From Heterostelium album PN500 (lineage: Eukaryota > Evosea > Eumycetozoa > Acytosteliales > Acytosteliaceae), in contig NW_008805071.1 in the NCBI RefSeq assembly GCF_000004825.1, positions 682,001 through 746,000 on the forward strand: DNA of 64,000 nt, read 5' to 3'. Below, one piece after another: positions 8,376 to 21,715 of the stretch. The translations under genes and the position numbers were made by a program. Within the stretch, counting starts at the first letter, position 1, and every line of letters begins with the position of its first letter. Below the pieces are notes generated by a model that did no database searches, was not told where the DNA came from, and saw only the letters and a list, made by a program, of their open reading frames with translations.

Positions 8376-11300
8376 TTATTTCTTACTAATTAAATAGTCT
8401 GTAGTGGATAACAGGGATTTACTATTGATTGAATCCCAAATCCACAATGAATTTACAATGGTTGCTTTACTATTTTCCTTGGTAAATGCACGTAACAGTT
8501 CTTTTTTCGACTCATTACTAATGATATGTGATACTTGTGGAGAAAGGGTTTCCAATATCTGGCCACCATAACTAATAATGTATCTCTTAAGTGTGTCAAT
8601 GTCATTGAGCATCGTTGGGTGAAGATAGATTTCACAGCCAGAGAAGAAATCTGGTAATGTAAATTTCTTTGGTTTCGAAGTTACTGCCTTGCTACTATCA
8701 TCTGTTTTGGTGGTTGAGGTAGAGTCATTGGTTGGTGCTTCGTAATCAGGATTGGTTGGATCGTAAAAGAGATATTCATTCTCATCGATGATAACATCGT
8801 TCTGGAAACAATCTTCGATCCACTTGGATGTGACAACCAATCCACCGAGACGATCGACATGTGTCGACAGCTCACAAGCTGCGTCACAAATGAGATGAGT
8901 GGTTTTCGAGGCACCGACTGGTATCCAACTGGTTGAGACTTGTCCACCAAACGAAGAAATGATATTCTCCCACTTCTTGATGTTGGCAGGCGGCAAATTG
9001 TTGGCAAACACCGCATTGACACCCTCGAAAATATTACTCAATGGCAATGCTACTTCGTCTGCAGCCAATGGATCTTCTTCCTCGCTGTCAGCCTTACGTT
9101 TGCTTCCACTTCCAGTTTTGGTGGTACCAACATCGCTGGTATGAATAAATACACTGACAGCTTTATCATACAACTTCTTTACATAGAGTTCTTCTAGAGT
9201 TGCCCATTTCAATCCTGGGTAGTTTGGTTTTACTGAATGAACCGATTTGATATCCTTGTGTTTGGCAATAGAGAGTACCTGTGTTAGAGTCTCACCAAAT
9301 TCTTCGACTTCAAAAGTATGGCTGTCGGCCTTTGATTCCGGTGCTTTGACACAGGATACATTGCAAACATAGATTTTGTTATCACCTTGTACTACTTTTG
9401 TGGTTCTAATTTCTCCCAAAGGTATTGGAGATTTAACAAAATCATCTTCAACATTCTTCCATTTCTTTGAAATCGCTCCTGGAACACCTGCATTTCTCCA
9501 TTTTCCTGAATTATCAGTATAGTTTATTATTATCTAAAAAGAAAGAACATAACATGTTAATAGTTGATAAATTTTTAATTATAAAATTATATTTTTTATC
9601 CTACTTACAGTACAATTCTCTTTATCATTTTTAAATGGATCAGTTATATCTCCTTGGACATAAATGACTTTACCCTTTAGTTTTGTGCTGTTGCTTGATA
9701 GAGAGGATTTAGATGATGAAGTAGTGGTGGTAGTGGTGGTGGTAGTGGTCGAAGTAGTAGCTGTTGTCTTTTGTTTTTTGGTAGCTGTAGTAGAGGTTGT
9801 CGATCTTGAAGCCGGTTTGATTTCTTCATCGTCGGAATCATAGGGTACAATTTTAACATCCTTTGCCAAATCCTTTAGTTCTGCAAATTTAGTAGATGTT
9901 GCCCAATCTTTGTCTTTACGAATCTTTACGATTCTTGGGAAACGCATAGAAAATCCAGAGGTATGATGCTTGGTTCCTGTGAGTTCAGCCGATTCCACTT
10001 CAAATACCATAGCTTCTTTTGGATCCTTCACAATGAAATCCGGTGTGTATGCCTTGAGAATATCCAACCAGGGTGGTACCTTTGTGGAATCTTTTGAAAT
10101 CTTTATCATCGAATTCTTTACGATTGGCTGAAGCTTTCCGATGGCAGCATCATCCAGACCACCGCTAACCTTACAGACTGTCTTGTATGTTTCTGTTTCC
10201 TCGTCGTAGCAACACATCAGGAATACCGTTACCAAACCACCGCTTGTTCCAGTTCCATAGTAACCACCGATCGCCAGGAGATCGGCACTGTCTGCCATAC
10301 CGGCGAGATAATCCTTCTTCACTTTGATCCAATGACGACAACCCGGTTCGTAGACACTAGTGGAATCCTTAATAACCAAACCCTCCAGCTTCTCTTTGAA
10401 AGTACGATTCAGGAGTGCCACCAATTTCGGTTTATCCTCCTTTCCAGCGATCTCTGTAATCTCTGACAACTCGACACGATGCTGAACCACATTGACATTG
10501 CTCTCGAGAATCTCACGACGCTTCGAAATCGGTAGATCAATCAACGACTTGCCATTGAGATATAAGATATCAAACAGGAATACACAGACTGTTGCATCGG
10601 TGAAACCATTCTTCTTGTGAATACCGAGTGTTCCAAAAGGAAGCGGCTTCGAAGTCTTGGTATCCATCAACAGAATCTCACCGTCCAAAATAATAGAGTC
10701 GGCTTTCGTTGCCTTGGGAATGTATGGCTTCACCTGCTCCACCTTCCACGATTGGACCGGTTTCAAGTTTCTCGAGAAACAGAAATAGTCGTTGCCTTGC
10801 TTGTGAATCTGGATACGCTCACCATCGTATTTGATCTCCGCATAGAAGAGCGGACCGCACGCAGAGATCACGGCATCCGCTGACTTTAACGCTTTCGGTA
10901 GCATCGGTTTGATCGGTGTCATCAGCTTCAACGAGATACCGAGCGATCCCATCTTCATTGCCGAGCCATCGCCAGCACTCTTCTTGTCGAATCCACCGCT
11001 CTTTATAGTATCGATGACCGCACGCAAGTTGTTGGCCTTTCTGTAGGCATCCATCGCTTCGGGATGCAACGCTTCCAAAAAGTATTTGGCACCCATATTT
11101 ATCTTCAAATCGGAATCGATGATACGATTAACCAATCGCCAATCGAAAGCAGTGCACTTCTTGAGGAATTTCGAAATCGCTTTCACTTGATCGTCAAACT
11201 TTGATATGGTTGTCAAAACATCCAAGAACTCATCGACCTGTCCCAGTGTCAAAGTTGATTTAGTTGGAATATTTTCTTGTCTTTGATAAAACTATAAATA

Positions 11301-12013: not shown

Positions 12014-15000
12014 TTAATGGAATGAATAGATGTTTGAGAGTTGACCACCAACCATGATTTCTATGGTGATCGGATCCTCATTGTCAATGTTACCGATTTC
12101 ACACTCGGCGAGCTTACTGTTTCGGAATGTTGTGCATATTACATTGCGATCATTATAAACCAATTTGATAAAAGAGTCTGATGGGTTATACGATACACCG
12201 AGATCAACAGGAACAAAATTCGATCCAAAGATCTGGATGATCGAATCTTTGTATTTAACAGATGTAATCTGTGGTTTAAAGTAGGAGATTGTGTAGTTTT
12301 CTAAGATTTCAGGTTGATAGGATAGCGCAACAACTGACAATGATAGATTCTTTCCGATTCCAGGTGGGATAAAGCATTCTATGAATTCATTGAATGAACT
12401 ACATGGTATGACAATCGAGTTTATATGAATTTCGATTCCATCATCATAGAATAATCCGAATCCAGATCCATTAATTCCAATTAATCCTCCTGTAGTTTTG
12501 AAATTTGAGATTAATAGATTATCTGAACTGGCTGGATTAAAATGGAATTCGGATATCGTTGATTGATCACCTGATTGAACGATCAATGATTGATTAGATG
12601 ATTCAAATTCTAATTGGAATTCGATTCTACCATTTGTATAATTGTTGATTTGAACTTGATTATCACCAATATAAACAAGTGGTGGGAGGTCTGAATCTTC
12701 TTCATTTCCAAAACCATTACCAAATATTAAGATCTTATCATTTGGATCTCCAAATGGTGGAAGGAATCCCATAATCTTTGGACCATCGAAATTGAATGAT
12801 TGTTGCTGGACTGTATCGATATTAAAAATCGATCTTTGATCATCGACAAAGACTGTAATCGATCGATAGTCTCCAATAGCAGATGGTGTCAAGCATACAA
12901 TTGATTCAGAATCAACACTGATAATCGGTTGACAAAACAGAGTTTCATCGATTAAAACTTGTAAATTCATTGCATCCATTCCAAAGTTTGAACCAGAAAT
13001 CGTTAAATTATCATTTCCATGACAATTTAAAATCTTTGGTTGGATTCCTGTGATTATTGGTGGTTGATAAGAGAATATAAATTTCGATCTTTGAATGTTG
13101 AAGATTGTTTGTTGTGTTGATATGATAATTTCATGATTACTTCCAACTCCATTTGGTACTTGACAAACTAATTGTTGTGTTGATAGCAATTCATTGTTAT
13201 GACAGGGCTTCTCTCCAATCGAAACAATCATTGAAGAATTGAATCTAATTCCATTGATAGTTATTTTATATCCACCATTGGTCGGACCTGTTAATTGATT
13301 TACTGATGTGATGATTGGACCAACACCTGAACAAATCGAATCAAATCTATTTGATTGATAATCTTGTTGATTAATCATTTGGATATCACATAATTGAGAA
13401 TTGATTGTTGAAATTATCATTCCATCAAAATCATTTGTAATATATCCAATGTAATCGACTGGTTTTGGATGATAGAAAACTTCGAAATCTCCAAAACTGG
13501 TTTTACTGGTTGTCTTCAAAAGACTTTCTAGAATAAAAGTGATTGAAACAATTGAAAGTGGTGATGAAAGAGTAATTCTTGTTCCAGTTGTTCCAACTGA
13601 TTGTAATTGAAGTTTAATATTGTTTCCAGGTTGATAATAATTCAATTCTTCAATGAATTTAATTGGTTGATTATGATATTGGTGGAAAGGATCTACGATG
13701 AGAGTTTGAATTGCTTGACTTTGACCATTGATTGAAATCCATTTATCAAATGATAATTCAAGTTTCATTGTTTGATAAATACTTAAAGAAGTAATATCAC
13801 TTGAATTCAATAGATTTGTGGAAATCAATTGTTGGACACCACTCTTGCTTTCTGATTCATCCTTTGATATTGAGCTTATTGAATTTTGATTATTCGATGA
13901 TAACAACGAATTTGATCGATCGAATGATTTCAATTTCATCAGATTCAAAAGACCAAGCTCAGTATCATCAATCATCCTTGTTTCTAATCTATTCTTTTCG
14001 AGACAGATCTTGAAATTATAGATTGTTCTATATTGACTTGGAATGATCCAATATAATGATGATAATGAATCGATTGATTGAGATTTCATTTTTGTCATCT
14101 TTATCATTGCATTTAGTAACACTGACGGTGGAATAATATCATTTGAAGTTCTTCCAGAATTGGCATAATTGTTGTCTTGACACATCATAGCCCAAGCTGC
14201 TCTTGCGTTTGTCTTAAATACAGAATCATCCATATCTACATCACTTTTTGATTTAATATTAAAAATTAGTTTGATATTAAGATTGTTTTAAAAGAAAATA
14301 TAAGTACCCTTTATTACTAATGTCTGAAAATCCAGGAACAACAGTAAAACATGAATTAATTAAAGATGTATCTGACTTTCTAAAATTCTAAATTAATAAA
14401 TAAATAAATTAGTCTTAAAATTGGAATTTTTCATAATAATTAATTAATATTTACATTGAATAATTTCTTTGAAATTGCAAAGATTACACCATTAGCCCAA
14501 TTTGGTTCATTGGTTCCAATTGAAAATGAAATTTGATTTTGAACATTTGCTTGATAATAGATATAATGAAGTGTCATAAAATATGCGATTTCTTCTTCGT
14601 AACAACTTTGGAGTTCGCTTCTGTATATGGTTGGTGGATTGAAGTGGTTGGAGAGTGATGGAGCGAAAACAAATTGATAGAAATTTCTTTTTGGATTCTC
14701 AAACATTGTCATGAATTTTGAAGTGAAACGTATCAATCTGAAATCATCATTATTTTCAAGCACGAATTTTTTGTTCTCGAGAGGTAAAGAATATTGAAGA
14801 TCCCAAGTTTTTTGATCATTTACCAAGGGTGGATATGATACTTGTGTTTGGGGTTTCGTAATGGGTGTAACTCGAGCATTCTCTTTTGAACATTGAATGA
14901 GATCATCTCTAAAATCACAAATTGATCCAACTTTTTCATCGAAAGCAATGTAATGAACTGAATAGATATCATTTGCAACATAGTCTTTGATATCTTGTTG

Positions 15001-18000
15001 TTTTTGTTCTGGAAACGTATTAGGTTGAACTGAACTAATTGATTGCTCCTCTTTTGGTGCAACATTTTCCTTACTTGTTCTTAGAACTTGGAGTTCAAGA
15101 ATAATATCACAATACCCCTTTGGAGGTATCTTATCGAGATAAAGATTCTGCTTTGGATATTTCGAAAAGTATTGATCATTGATATAATCTTTAATTTCCA
15201 AACTGATCAAAGGATGTTGGTCCACTCTAAAAAATAGAACTGGTTGCTGCATTGTAAAGAATAAACCGATAGAGTCCTTTCTAAATATTTTGATATCGTT
15301 AATATTTAATTCTTATCTTATTCTATAAAAGGATTTACATACGATGTCATCAATGTAATTCGTTCTCCTTCACCTAATAAATTATATGTATCATATTTTC
15401 GAACCATTCTATTGAATTGATAAACAAGAGTAGGATGATAGAAACAAATGATACCACCTGCTCTTTGACCTTGTCCATTATGACGATTGCTATCACCAAC
15501 ACAGAAATAGTTGTCCTCTATTTAATATAATTAATTAAAATTTTATAATGTTTAACTATAATTCTATTAAGTAATATATACCATTATCATTTTGCACCTC
15601 AGTTGAATATGTTGGATAAACTGGAAATCCTAATTTTGAATGTTCATAAAAAGCTGAGGCAAATCTATTAGTGATATATTTTCCATATTTTGACTTTGGT
15701 GAAAGATATTGAGGAAGTTCCAAATGTGCAACATTGATAACTTGTTCAGTTGGTCTCATTTGCATAATTTTATATTGATCGTCTTTCGTAAACACATTGG
15801 AACAAGACATTTGAACAAACATCTTCTTTTTGAAATGATCTGCTACTACCATCCATAAGTCAACTCCATCGTGATATACATTATTAAACTTCTCAAGTCC
15901 GGTCCGTTTCTTCAAGATATACTTTGATCTGGTTGGGTTTTCGAATAGACCATCTTCTCGATAGTAATTATTTCCAATTTTCATAAAATATTTCATTTTC
16001 AAATCGTTTCCAATTGTTGTGAATTCTGAATTCCAATAGCAGATATTGTCAAGATTGTCGTTTCCATTTCTAATATTTTTCTCACAAGCATCCCTATAAA
16101 TTTTCGACCATGATGAATCTTTTTTGATCAAATTATACATATATTTATAATTCTCCATTCGAGGTGATTTGACTATATCCTTAAACACATTTGAAGAAAA
16201 AACCTTTACAGAGTTCTTTACCATATACTCTGCAACTTGCTCCATATTATCAGTGTTGTAACAAAAGAAATGTTGACTGAAAACATTCTTTCCAAGAAAC
16301 TTAATACCTTCATATGGTGTGTTAAATTTCATACCATCACCTTTATCTTCGTATGATGGAAATATTGGATTTGAATGTTGAATATGAATTCCAAAGACTT
16401 GACCATCAACCTCATCCCAAAGTGAAATTCCTTTACTATGACCGTATCTGTCGTCTATAGTACCATCATTTGCTTTTTTCTCTATTCTTCCTCCCCAATC
16501 ATCTCTACCTCCAATTTGATCATTGTAATAGATATGATAGGTTGCAGGTTGCATAACAGTTGATTCCAATGGACTGAGTGGCATTTGGTCGAAAGGTTTG
16601 AGATGTTGAAGATTGTCAAATAGTTTCAATTGATCCATTGTTGAGTCAATATATAAATAGGATTCGGTTTCACTTTTGGCAATTTTATAGATAAACCACC
16701 AATCAACAACTTCATTGGTCACACCATAAGTTGGCCGTTGTCCAAGACATGAAACCAAGTCAGACTTGTACTCTATATTGGCATCAGATTTGATACCATC
16801 CACTATAACGAAAACATTGAATATTCCAACGTTTTTCAATTCTGGAAGAATACATGAGATTGTATTTCCATTATCCAGAATCTGAACGGAATGACATTCA
16901 ACATCACCAACAATGACTTGGACTTGGTTTGGATCATTTGAAAATTCACTACCATATATCATTATTGTTTGTTGAATTCGATTTAAACCTCTGTTCGGTT
17001 TTATTTTTGAAACGACCGGACCTTGGATTTTGATGAAATACTCTTGATATTCATGATCTATAGAGAAACTGTCGGTGACGAATAAAGTAACTGGATATGA
17101 TCCAATGAAAAAATATGGAATATCACAAAGAATACGATCTTCGGAAAAAATAGAACATGTTGACATATCTAAAAGATATTCTGTTCCTATTTGAATCGAT
17201 GTTATAAAATCCAAGTGCAGACCTGAAATTGCAAAGTTTTCATCATCTTGCTCGAATAAAGTGAAAGTTGGTTCATAATATGTGAATTGAAGAATAGTTA
17301 AAAATTCATGGTAAGAATGAAAAAGAATCGATATTTCGACGGTTGCAGGACCATCTAATTTTGGTGGAACCAAAAATGAGAATTTCTTTTTATCGATAAT
17401 TCTGATTGATTTTGAATCGACTTTAGTATCTTTAATCCTGATGGTCATATGATCATTTGAAAAAAGATCAAATGGCAGATTACTGTATTCTACTTCGATT
17501 TCGGTTTCAGAGTAAACATATCCAACCGTTGGAGTCATTGTGATGATGGGATCTACCACTGAGAAAATCATTGGTGGGGATAGAATTGAACCGTCAAGAC
17601 TGGAATATAATTCTATAGTATGATCTCCTATTGGTAAGCCTAATTTTTCAATATTCAATTCAATCTTTAAAAGATTGTAAGATACTAATTTCGAATCTAT
17701 ATGTTGTCCATTTAATAAAACATCGGTGAAATCTGGTAAATGTTCTGTTTGAATATTTAAATACCAAACACCGTCTCTATAGATCTCTTTGGGTTGAATA
17801 TCTATAATAGTTGGCTTTCCAATAAAAGTAAAAATCTTATCATCAAAGGAAATTTGATTTCCACCAATATTTAGTTCCAAAGGATATGAACCAATGATAT
17901 TGGTACCAGTTGTATCGAAAATACAAATTAATTGGGTATCACTTCTTTGTGTAGCTTGACAACCAACATTTCCAAATGAAGCAAAATCCGATTCACCAAG

Positions 18001-19086
18001 ATATCTTCCATTTATCGAAATCTGAAACTTGGTATTACTGTAAGCTATCAATGGATAAATGCTTGAAACGATAGGTCCTGAAAAAAAAAAAGATTATTAA
18101 AATTTTGAGATTCTTTGAATTCCTGACAAATAGTACATACGATAAATAACAAAGCTAAGAATTCCTTTAACAGATTGACCATCAATAACAGCAATGATTG
18201 GTAAATCCAATTCATTTTGACCATCTGGAATTGGATCGGTATGTGTGAATTGACAGATTACCCAATTTGGTGTAATCTTTTGTACTGGGCATATCTGACC
18301 ACCAATTATGATAATAAAGTTATTACGATCATCAACAAACGATTTTCCAAAAATAGTTATTTGATTGCTATTTGATATACTTCTTGATGGTCTAACTCTG
18401 AATAATGAAGGCACTTCATAACTGAAATACAAAGCTTGTACACCTTGCGACAGTCCTTCAGGATATATGAAAACATTGAAAACTTTGTTTTTGTCTTCTC
18501 GGTAGTTTGGAATGTAACATTGGATCTCCGTGCGAGAAGCACTTATCACTTTCAGGGGGAAACGCTCGTCAACATCAACAAAGTTTACATTAATTTCATC
18601 ATCATCTTCCAACAACAGATTCTTACCTGTTATCGTAAGGATCTTAGTTTCGAAACCTCTTGGGTAATAGAATTCTGGTGTAATACTATCAACAATTGGT
18701 GCTATTTTTAAATTAATAAATGTTTATTTTAATTCTTTAATAAATTTATTTTAAAACTTACATATGAAATTAAAAATAAAACCACTAAAAATAATATTTC
18801 CATCCTGTCGAAGACTAATACTATAGCTATCTTTACCTTTTGGATTCCAAAGAAAAAAGACAAACTTAAAAGTTACGCCATCATCGAGCAAATCTGATTT
18901 CAACAGAGATTGTTTTGTAGAACCAAGGTATAGTTCGGGTCTCCTCATGTCTTCAAGGCTGAAACCAGTTCCGTAGATGGTGAAATAAGTTTTACCGTAT
19001 TTATAACCAACTAGTGGACTATGATCAGTGATTAATTGCGACTCCACGACAACACCCATTAGAATGAGTAGAATGAAAACATTCAC
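12014..19086 (-). CDS. Giant secreted TIG (IPT)-repeat protein with an internal DNase II domain
   Basis: Seven exons (19086-18762, 18701-18141, 18077-15582, 15517-15343, 15280-14455, 14387-14308, 14243-12014) keep one frame for about 2,230 residues. The N-terminus has a hydrophobic signal-like segment (NVFILLILMGVVV). Residues ~20-735 hold several TIG/IPT Ig-like domains (pattern P-x-I-x-x-I-x-P...GG/G-x-x-I-x-G-x-x-F). Residues ~738-1185 match DNase II: CLGQ, VDWWFIYK, YNDQ, GHSKG near 842, IHIQHSNPIFP near 857, EHSKLGF near 1109 and CVGDSNRH. The His residues expected for catalysis are present. About 470 unassigned residues follow, then more TIG domains to the end. No C-terminal membrane segment or GPI signal is seen, so secretion is likely. 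There is no in-frame ATG before the hydrophobic start, so a short 5' exon is probably missing from this model. A role in digesting bacterial or extracellular DNA is inference. Confidence 0.8.
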
Positions 19087-19105
19087 CCACTTAATAGGTA
19101 TTATG

Positions 19106-19638: not shown

Positions 19639-19908
19639 ATGAATAATAATCTTAAAAGTAATAGTAATAATAAAGAAGATCAATTAATTAGTGAAGTTAA
19701 TGGTACCACCACTAATCAATATGTATTATTAGTAACAACAGTCGGAGGAATTGTAATTGAGTTATTCAATGATCAATCTCCAGGCATCGTCAATAGATTC
19801 TTAGAACAACTTAATCTTCATAGATACAACGACACTCTCATACATAGAATAATAAAAAGTCTATTCATTCAAACCGGTAGATTTAGTTTAAATAATAATA
19901 ATAATAAC

Positions 19909-19946
<38 letters not shown>

Positions 19947-21715
19947 AATAACAACTACTACTACTACAACTACAGTACCATCATTATTTACAAAAACCAA
20001 TACATTCATTGAAAATTCATCTTACTTCTTTAACGATGACCTCGATCAGGATGATATCGATGAACAATTGGAGATTACAGATGATAAAGAGAAGGCTGGT
20101 GGTGGTAGTGTTCATTTAGATCGTGAATTCAAGAAGCTACTTAAAGAGAGTAAATCAAGGTTTAATAAGAGAGGTCTTTTTGGTTTGGGAAGGTACAATC
20201 AGTTAATATTTTCGCTGGATTCTGCGGATGCTCTTGACAATAAGTTCTTGCTACTGGGAAGAGTACATCCATCTACGGAATCAGTTCTACACAAAATAGA
20301 GAATATGCCAACAAACGATGATAACTCACCGATTGAACCAATATTAATAACAGATGTACATCTTCTAAGTGAATTTAAAGAAGAAACCGTACAAAATGCA
20401 ATAACAACAACCACTTCGACAACAAAAAACAACAACAACAGCAATAACAATATTGATAATAACAACAATAATAATAGTAATAATAGTAATAATAGTAATA
20501 ATAGTAATAATAGTAATAATAGTAATAATAGTAATAATAGTAATAATAATAGTATTTCATCAACACCTAAATTAGAATTTGGTGAAACACCTTTGAAAAG
20601 AGCATATAATAGTACTTTTAATTTGAATGATGTTAATGTTAATAGTAGTAATAATAATAGTAATAATGTTACGAATCAACATTTCGATTCTACACCTGTC
20701 ATTAAGAGATTAAAGACAAAGATAATGACAGGCTTGATAAAGACACCATCTAGTTCGAGAGTACACGAAGATAGTCAACTGCCACTCATGACTTGCAATA
20801 TCGATAGTTTCAAACCAGTAGGTCTCAATCGTACGTTGTCAATGCCCTATATCAATGGCGGTACAAAGGTGAAACCAAAGTGGCCAACCAGACTGGTGAT
20901 CGTTAGACACGGTCAGTCGGAACAGAACGCACAGCTCGATCTACCGAATAAAGAGGATATCGATATTCTCTTGACATCGAGTGTCAGAGATGCCGACATA
21001 AAACTTACGGCGCTAGGACGATGGCAAAGTCAGCAGACAGGCCGCTATCTAGCGACGACCGCCAAATTCGACATTTGTTTCAGTTCACCTTATATCCGTG
21101 CGATCGACACCGCCGAGGAAATCATCAATCAACTGCCATACAAACTGAAGCGATACACCAGCAATTGGTTGCGCGAAAAGGAATTTGGCAATTTCCACGG
21201 CCTGACCGAAGAGGCTATCAAGCAGACGTTCCCGCGCGAATACCAGACGCGTATGCGTGAAGGTAAATACTGGTATAAGATGCCATCAGGTGAGAACTAT
21301 TGTGATGGTAAGTAGATAGATAGATAAGTAAATAGAAATCTTGTTATTTTATTCTAACAACAAATGATCGATCATCGAATTGTTATTTTCATTAGTTGAA
21401 GAAAGAGTACATTCTTTTTTGGAGAAACTATCTAGAGACTATGCCGGTAGGAATGTATTGGTGGTTACACATCAGGTTCCTTACAAACTATTTAGAAGTC
21501 TATTCCAACATCTCGATGAGAAAGGTGTGTTGGCGCTGGAGAATGTTCATAACTGTGGTATACAAGAGTATCTTTTAGATACCACCAAAGCAGCGGATGG
21601 TCGAATGAAGTTAAAACATTTCAATTTCAAATCATATGATTTAAAAGATTTACCAGATAATCTAAAAGAAAATAATAACAATAATAAACTCCAATCAAAA
21701 AAAGCATTAATATAA
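19639..21715 (+). CDS. Cyclophilin-like domain fused to a histidine phosphatase
   Basis: Two exons (19639-21307, 21396-21715) encode 662 residues. Residues ~28-80 and ~170-240 form a cyclophilin-type fold (TTVGGIVIELF, then LIHRIIKSLFIQTGRF, with the Arg and Gln of the peptidyl-prolyl isomerase site kept), split by a large Asn-rich insertion. Residues ~245-350 are low-complexity. Residues ~415-650 are a histidine phosphatase (phosphoglycerate-mutase-like) domain: RHG at 423-425 (nucleophile His424), SSPYIRAIDTAEEI, EFGNFHG, and VVTHQVPY carrying the second catalytic His. Both domains look intact at key residues, although the cyclophilin half lacks several canonical loops (compare the degenerate CWC27 type). 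The substrate is unknown. The Asn repeats at 19895-19943 and 20455-20550 are typical dictyostelid insertions. Confidence 0.75.
19892..19945 (+). repeat. (AAT)n poly-Asn tract in coding sequence
   Basis: This run of AAT/AAC codons encodes about 17 consecutive Asn inside a cyclophilin loop of the fusion protein. Confidence 0.9.
20461..20550 (+). repeat. Tandem AATAGTAAT nonamer repeat in coding sequence
   Basis: About eight copies of a 9-bp unit encode Asn-Ser-Asn. The copies are nearly identical at the DNA level, which points to recent expansion. They lie in the linker between the cyclophilin and phosphatase domains. Confidence 0.85.

Follow-up and report, generated by a model that had tools for sequence, protein, structure and literature searches.

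In the genome of Heterostelium album PN500, a DNase II domain is inserted into a giant protein with TIG (IPT) domains on both sides, and this architecture is encoded by at least 19 genes, including the one described here. The gene is located in a window of 64,000 nucleotides (contig NW_008805071.1, positions 682,001 to 746,000; C10:682001-746000 in our contig numbering), which is the whole stretch of DNA that was analysed. The original prediction implied a singular protein; what was found instead is a large paralogous family, one side of which keeps the HxK motifs of the DNase II active site while the other side loses them. We favour, with a probability of roughly 0.6, the explanation that these genes encode a TIG-scaffolded, secreted family of acid nucleases whose HxK-losing sister branch would serve as binding or decoy module.

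The gene was found on the minus strand (~19089-12014), and joining of seven exons across six introns gave a single frame of 2,231 residues, in line with the ~2,230 residues expected. The introns are 60-67 bases long with an AT content of 78-92%, are bordered by GT...AG throughout and keep the frame in all six cases; the three junctions proposed originally (18141/18077, 15582/15517 and 15343/15280) are among them. The product has the order N-terminal TIG domains, DNase II domain, a middle region of ~600 residues and C-terminal TIG domains. It contains eight N-glycosylation sequons, and in a hydropathy scan the N-terminal hydrophobic stretch alone passed; no C-terminal or other transmembrane segment was seen. 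The features of the gene are as follows.

18762..19089, minus strand: exon 1, the first recognised, with a hydrophobic stretch, WVNVFILLILMGVVVES, and a sub-threshold TIG match
19032-18913, minus strand: this TIG match in exon 1 (residues 20-59; 19.3 bits, piecewise scan)
18761-18702, minus strand: intron
18141..18701, minus strand: exon 2, with TIG matches
18699-18418, minus strand: TIG domain in exon 2 (residues 111-204; piecewise scan)
18393-18235, minus strand: TIG domain in exon 2 (residues 213-265; piecewise scan)
Junction 18141/18077, minus strand: intron of 63 bases
15582..18077, minus strand: exon 3, with TIG matches and the larger part of the DNase II domain
18075-17824, minus strand: TIG domain in exon 3 (residues 298-381; piecewise scan)
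17277-17071, minus strand: TIG domain in exon 3 (residues 564-632; no stretch at or below 0.05 by itself)
17019-16783, minus strand: TIG domain in exon 3 (residues 650-728; piecewise scan)
15387..16719, minus strand: DNase II domain (residues 750-1172), split by the intron 15581-15518
16707, minus strand: VDWWF (residue 754)
Residue 813, minus strand: YYNDQ
16443-16429, minus strand: GHSKG, the first HxK (residue 842)
16377, minus strand: HSNP of HSNPIFP, with the third His (residue 864)
15645-15631, minus strand: EHSKL, the second HxK (residue 1108)
Junction 15582/15517, minus strand: intron of 64 bases
15343..15517, minus strand: exon 4, with the end of the DNase II domain
15503-15480, minus strand: CVGDSNRH in exon 4 (residue 1134)
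Junction 15343/15280, minus strand: intron of 62 bases
14455..15280, minus strand: exon 5, first half of the region between the DNase II domain and the C-terminal TIG domains
14454-14388, minus strand: intron
14308..14387, minus strand: exon 6, in which the middle region goes on
14307-14244, minus strand: intron
12014..14243, minus strand: exon 7, middle region to about 13352, then C-terminal TIG domains
~13321-13067, minus strand: TIG domain in exon 7 (residues ~1797-1881), placed by eye
13060-12833, minus strand: TIG domain in exon 7 (residues 1884-1959; piecewise scan)
12781-12575, minus strand: TIG domain in exon 7 (residues 1977-2045; piecewise scan)
12016-12014, minus strand: stop codon, end of the 2,231-residue frame

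Elsewhere in the window, a frame of 558 residues at 19639-21315 on the plus strand combines a cyclophilin-type isomerase domain (31-241) with a histidine phosphatase domain (419-555), a pairing that, to our knowledge, seems unusual. Downstream of the TIG-DNase II gene, 8376-11252 on the minus strand holds two frames, one for a DNA ligase (9579-11252) and one containing LIG3-type BRCT domains (8376-9419); both are probably parts of one DNA ligase gene.

DNase II is a metal-independent acid endonuclease with a pseudodimeric, PLD-like fold and is mainly known as an enzyme of ~350 residues that stands alone and is lysosomal or secreted. A Pfam search with the spliced protein matched DNase_II (PF03265) at residues 750-1172 with an E-value of 4.4e-31 and 108.7 bits, compared to a curated cut-off of 23, and the match spans positions 6-325 of the 326 positions of the profile. 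The motifs VDWWF, YYNDQ, GHSKG, HSNPIFP, EHSKL and CVGDSNRH were all found in the order claimed. With such an E-value and score a chance order of motifs is excluded, which is also borne out by a profile match to the solved enzyme. The window domain alone gave a weak match to solved DNase-2 (5i3e/5unb, presumably from Burkholderia) with 0.0058, via its C-terminal part, and a profile of 17 domains from the H. album genome, which includes a stand-alone DNase II (L001) and five HxK-lost rows, matched the same entries with 9.1e-18. In the alignment of this profile the two HxK motifs are opposite GHTKG and DHAKW of 5i3e, the segment with the second HxK being weak by itself (0.083); the same profile gave a chance-level match to a sodium-channel subunit (0.0088). 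HSNPIFP of the window aligned with HSWPKY of 5i3e, and we take its His to be the counterpart of His132 in the pig enzyme. Crucial residues of pig DNase II are reported to be His115, His132 and His297 (PMC11430429), and DHSK and DHAK are forms of the second motif on record (PMC4148230).

The window protein thus shares with DNase II a near-full profile match, both HxK motifs, the third His and the CVGD.NR motif, but the domain is embedded in a 2,231-residue TIG protein and takes up 423 residues for a profile of 326 positions. Since the domain lies inside this long frame, the product is a DNase II domain protein and no classical DNase II. The interval 15343..18077 given for it originally does hold the domain but is too wide, because the match itself is at 16719-15387; it covers TIG domains as well. 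Neither viral nor prokaryote relatives were confirmed by alignment among 71 and 277 pattern stretches and, because the query was narrow, this says little on distant DNase II.

TIG domains were matched by Pfam in the whole protein with 2.5e-68 and 226.5 bits (cut-off 20.9) in nine stretches, and they lie N-terminal and C-terminal of the DNase II domain, as predicted. Exon 7 gave four TIG stretches across two scanned pieces, two of them with reported places. Two further matches did not reach their thresholds, DUF7498 in the window protein (19.9 bits, cut-off 27) and, in exon 7, an NCBIfam repeat (26.2 bits, cut-off 30).

The middle region (residues 1188-1786, about 15280-13352 on the minus strand) matched no Pfam family at 0.05 as a whole, and the window piece of its first half matched none either. 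In 11 members, this first half gave three weak Pfam families, each in one member of 11 and the best with 0.027, and a profile built from it had no match among PDB sequences. In the genome, the first half was found with 20 matches at 19 places, window included, L019 accounting for two of the matches. It adjoins a DNase II domain at all 19 places, of which 18 were tied to DNase II by the genome match list and one (C15:524820) by reading of the locus L044. DNase II domains for which no middle-region match is listed are those of L009-L016, L026, L028, L031 and L035. Invariant Cys, His and Asp columns were seen across the 11 aligned members.

For the family, the genome sequence (32,926,113 bases in 39 contigs) was searched, which revealed 65 exon-level DNase_II matches with E <= 0.001, window included; 24 of these lie in open frames of more than 800 residues. 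The window and the fetched stretches, numbered as L loci, cover 53 of the 65 matches, and the other 12 are located on C27 (five), at C9:28-30k (three), at C3:474-476k (two) and at C15:948k and 493k (one each). Three genes encode the whole architecture in uninterrupted frames: L010 has 11 TIG stretches and DNase_II in 2,097 residues, and L013 and L015 have 13 TIG stretches each and DNase_II in 2,242 and 1,821 residues, respectively. Therefore, the TIG-DNase II architecture is independent of guessed splicing. In five more loci (L009, L011, L012, L014 and L016), the DNase_II match and the TIG match fall into an open frame of identical length and position. Ten paralogs (L019, L020, L021, L023-L028 and L044) are similar to the window protein both N-terminal and C-terminal of the domain, with a last-exon identity of 43-61% in eight of them (all except L026 and L028). 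Together with the window gene, these three groups amount to the at least 19 TIG-DNase II genes. These ten paralogs and the three single-frame paralogs support, as far as sequence comparison goes, that the window exons would encode one product. In L030, both HxK motifs and CVGDNNRH are within one open frame. L001 (frame of 360 residues, DNase_II with 344 bits) resembles an ordinary DNase II that stands alone. A misassembly or private fusion was ruled out by the same architecture being repeated elsewhere in the genome.

L029 (C10:743500-753499), ~0.7 kb past the right end of the window, is a degraded DNase II copy with four in-frame stops. L017 (C3:14000-23999) and L042 (C23:4800-10999) each carry one DNase II domain per strand; of the two domain pairs formed between these loci, one is almost identical and the other less similar. 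Contig C23 (L042) has only 11,158 bases, and C3:14000 (L017) is near a contig end.

The original prediction of a secreted protein is supported for relatives of the window gene. In L019, L020 and L023, the place aligned with exon 1 of the window contains an ATG with a signal-peptide-like stretch behind it, and candidate ATGs with signal-peptide-like stretches were found upstream of the first matched exons in L021, L024, L025 and L027. Secretion of these relatives is likely from their sequences, whereas the window copy may or may not be secreted: its hydrophobic stretch in exon 1 is not preceded by an ATG in frame, and the next one is 3' of the hydrophobic core. On the minus strand at 19057-19082, an out-of-frame ATG frame (MFSFYSF) ends with TAATG and has a one-base overlap with the first in-frame ATG.

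The window copy lacks an ATG at the place where its nearest relatives begin, for which reason it may be impaired; it could be a decaying or silent paralog of a working family, which has lost start codon and signal peptide. A long end branch of 0.50 in the domain tree, compared to 0.28, 0.034 and 0.054 in the nearest relatives, would fit such a decay, but end branches are equal or longer elsewhere (L027 0.65, L030 0.68, L037 0.56) and no other lesion was found across 2,231 codons and six introns. In addition, a short upstream coding exon could restore the start: three candidate ATG-donor pairs upstream are in phase and could give the gene a first exon, none of the three being backed by a relative; alternatively, the missing ATG may stem from an error in the draft sequence. 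In sum, we consider a decay of the window copy rather unlikely.

A tree was calculated for 38 DNase II domains (39 rows minus the fragment L029; L044 was left out), and motifs were tabulated with the help of regular expressions and of local alignments. Where these missed a second motif, for example behind an intron, it was scored as unread. The side of the tree with the window comprises 22 rows (support 99/95), and the first HxK is present in 22 of 22. Both HxK motifs are present in 17 rows, that is in every row of this side in which the second motif was read:

Window, L017 plus strand, L019, L020, L021, L023-L028, L030, L031, L035, L036, L041 and L042 minus strand

The second motif is HAK in L019, L023, L024, L025 and L036. 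It was unread in L037-L040 and L043; in the alignment of L037 a stop comes first. The other side of the tree comprises 15 rows (support 99/98) and has the first catalytic His in none of them; the first motif reads LGKG in ten rows, TSKG in three and QSKG in one, and in L018 none was found. In eight genes of this side (L009-L016) HSH, KSY, RSY or RSF is at the position of the second HxK, a His being retained in L009 (HSH), and in the remaining seven rows the second motif was unread. The root of the tree is unsure because of long-branch warnings (L001, L018, L027 and others), and the rows are not to be counted as independent losses, since L017/L042 (one strand), L022/L032/L033, L011/L012 and L015/L016 are near-identical. 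With the first His absent from 15 rows, it is not nuclease activity that unites the whole family.

This loss raises the question of whether DNase II mainly serves these proteins to bind or recognise DNA, polyanions or a protein partner, as part of a Tgr-like family in which catalysis is an ancestral function. Besides the 15 rows without the first His and the eight genes with an altered second HxK, this would be consistent with the constraint on HxK-lost domains: three pairs among L009-L016 have domain dN/dS values of 0.20, 0.28 and 0.35. In addition, DNase II-7 of Trichinella is reported to have no DNase activity while its knockdown lowers invasion (PMC10249883), and TgrB1-TgrC1 binding is described to occur via TIG domains (PMC12324515). 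However, the intact motifs on the window's side, with the first HxK in every row and both wherever the second was read, argue for catalysis there; the HxK-lost pair L032/L033 has a dN/dS of 0.77, from very few changes, and the window protein lacks the transmembrane segment of Tgr proteins. A mainly binding role of the domain is unlikely in our view.

As regards selection on the window copy, which favours a working family, four comparisons with L019 and L020 gave dN/dS values of 0.18-0.33 for the exon with DNase II and for the last exon, at a dS of 1.2-1.9 that is near saturation. The three HxK-lost pairs among L009-L016 are more constrained than two recent HxK-keeping pairs. In L024/L025, pN/pS was 1.38 in the DNase II domain compared to 0.42 in the rest (37 non-synonymous and 7 synonymous changes vs 70 and 49; Fisher 0.0028), and in L019/L023 it was 0.95 compared to 0.63 (48 and 13 vs 64 and 30; Fisher 0.20); the contrast is thus significant for L024/L025 only. 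Positive selection was rejected since neither domain departs from neutral by itself (0.46 for L024/L025 and 0.87 for L019/L023), and with two pairs only the contrast of domain and rest is a hint; the low constraint fits relaxation as well as adaptation.

Last, two genes or a false splice, with the DNase II part as an own transcript within a TIG gene region, are very improbable, since TIG-DNase II paralogs exist in single frames, paralogs are colinear across the introns and the first half of the middle region is beside DNase II at all 19 places.

The TIG-scaffolded acid nuclease family with a HxK-losing sister branch is our preferred explanation. Of the adhesion-like scaffold for a nuclease proposed at the outset, the insertion of the domain, its TIG flanks and its catalytic motifs are borne out, and from these we infer a nuclease activity. 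The proteins would most likely be released into the medium, the matrix or the endolysosome. Members with both HxK motifs would cut DNA at acid pH via a phosphohistidine, in the manner of DNase II, as expected from family knowledge and intact motifs, for example in the phagosome or in a secreted digestive fluid. The TIG arms may tether the enzyme to prey, to the matrix or to cell surfaces, and the HxK-losing branch would bind without cutting, probably as binding or decoy module. The window copy may be secreted as well, and a role in feeding or defence is conceivable.

The arrangement of the two known domain families is new, but it is not a new kind of enzyme. No TIG-DNase II protein was described in the titles or abstract openings of the papers listed, a search that covered few subscription journals; an automatic entry for the architecture may exist in databases such as InterPro. 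Like TgrB1/TgrC1 and the other expanded IPT/TIG proteins of dictyostelids, the family has several TIG domains and many paralogs (PMC12324515; PMC4334915), IPT/TIG family sizes in four dictyostelids being 9, 43, 35 and 50 (PMC4334915, Table 2). Tgr proteins are, however, transmembrane, and the accessible part of the account mentions no nuclease domain in them (PMC12324515), whereas the window protein carries DNase II. The DNase II-like proteins of Trichinella are likewise a large lineage expansion with altered catalytic His residues, but they have ~300-360 residues and no TIG scaffold is mentioned in the parts of the papers available (PMC4148230, PMC10249883); in H. album, a whole branch keeps both motifs. 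'Deoxyribonuclease II activity' is among the GO terms common to lineage-specific expansions of dictyostelids (Luna and Chain 2021, PMC8535579), and TIG domains, domain order and active-site loss are absent from that account as far as it is accessible.

A more far-reaching model is improbable at present: an expanded set of secreted TIG-scaffold nucleases and pseudo-nucleases, in which the faces of DNase II diversify from one recent duplicate to the other while the HxK core is kept, would form an extracellular, DNA-targeting system for recognition or defence. If this were true, targets could be, for example, bacterial DNA, biofilm, DNA of foreign amoebae or own DNA nets; D. discoideum is reported to cast DNA nets against bacteria (PMC4773522). 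Giant adhesion-like proteins contain DNase II here as a recurring module, at least 19 genes of this type being present in a single genome from a group that eats bacteria, and the split into HxK-keeping and HxK-losing members within this genome makes the roles of enzyme and pseudoenzyme comparable on the same scaffold.
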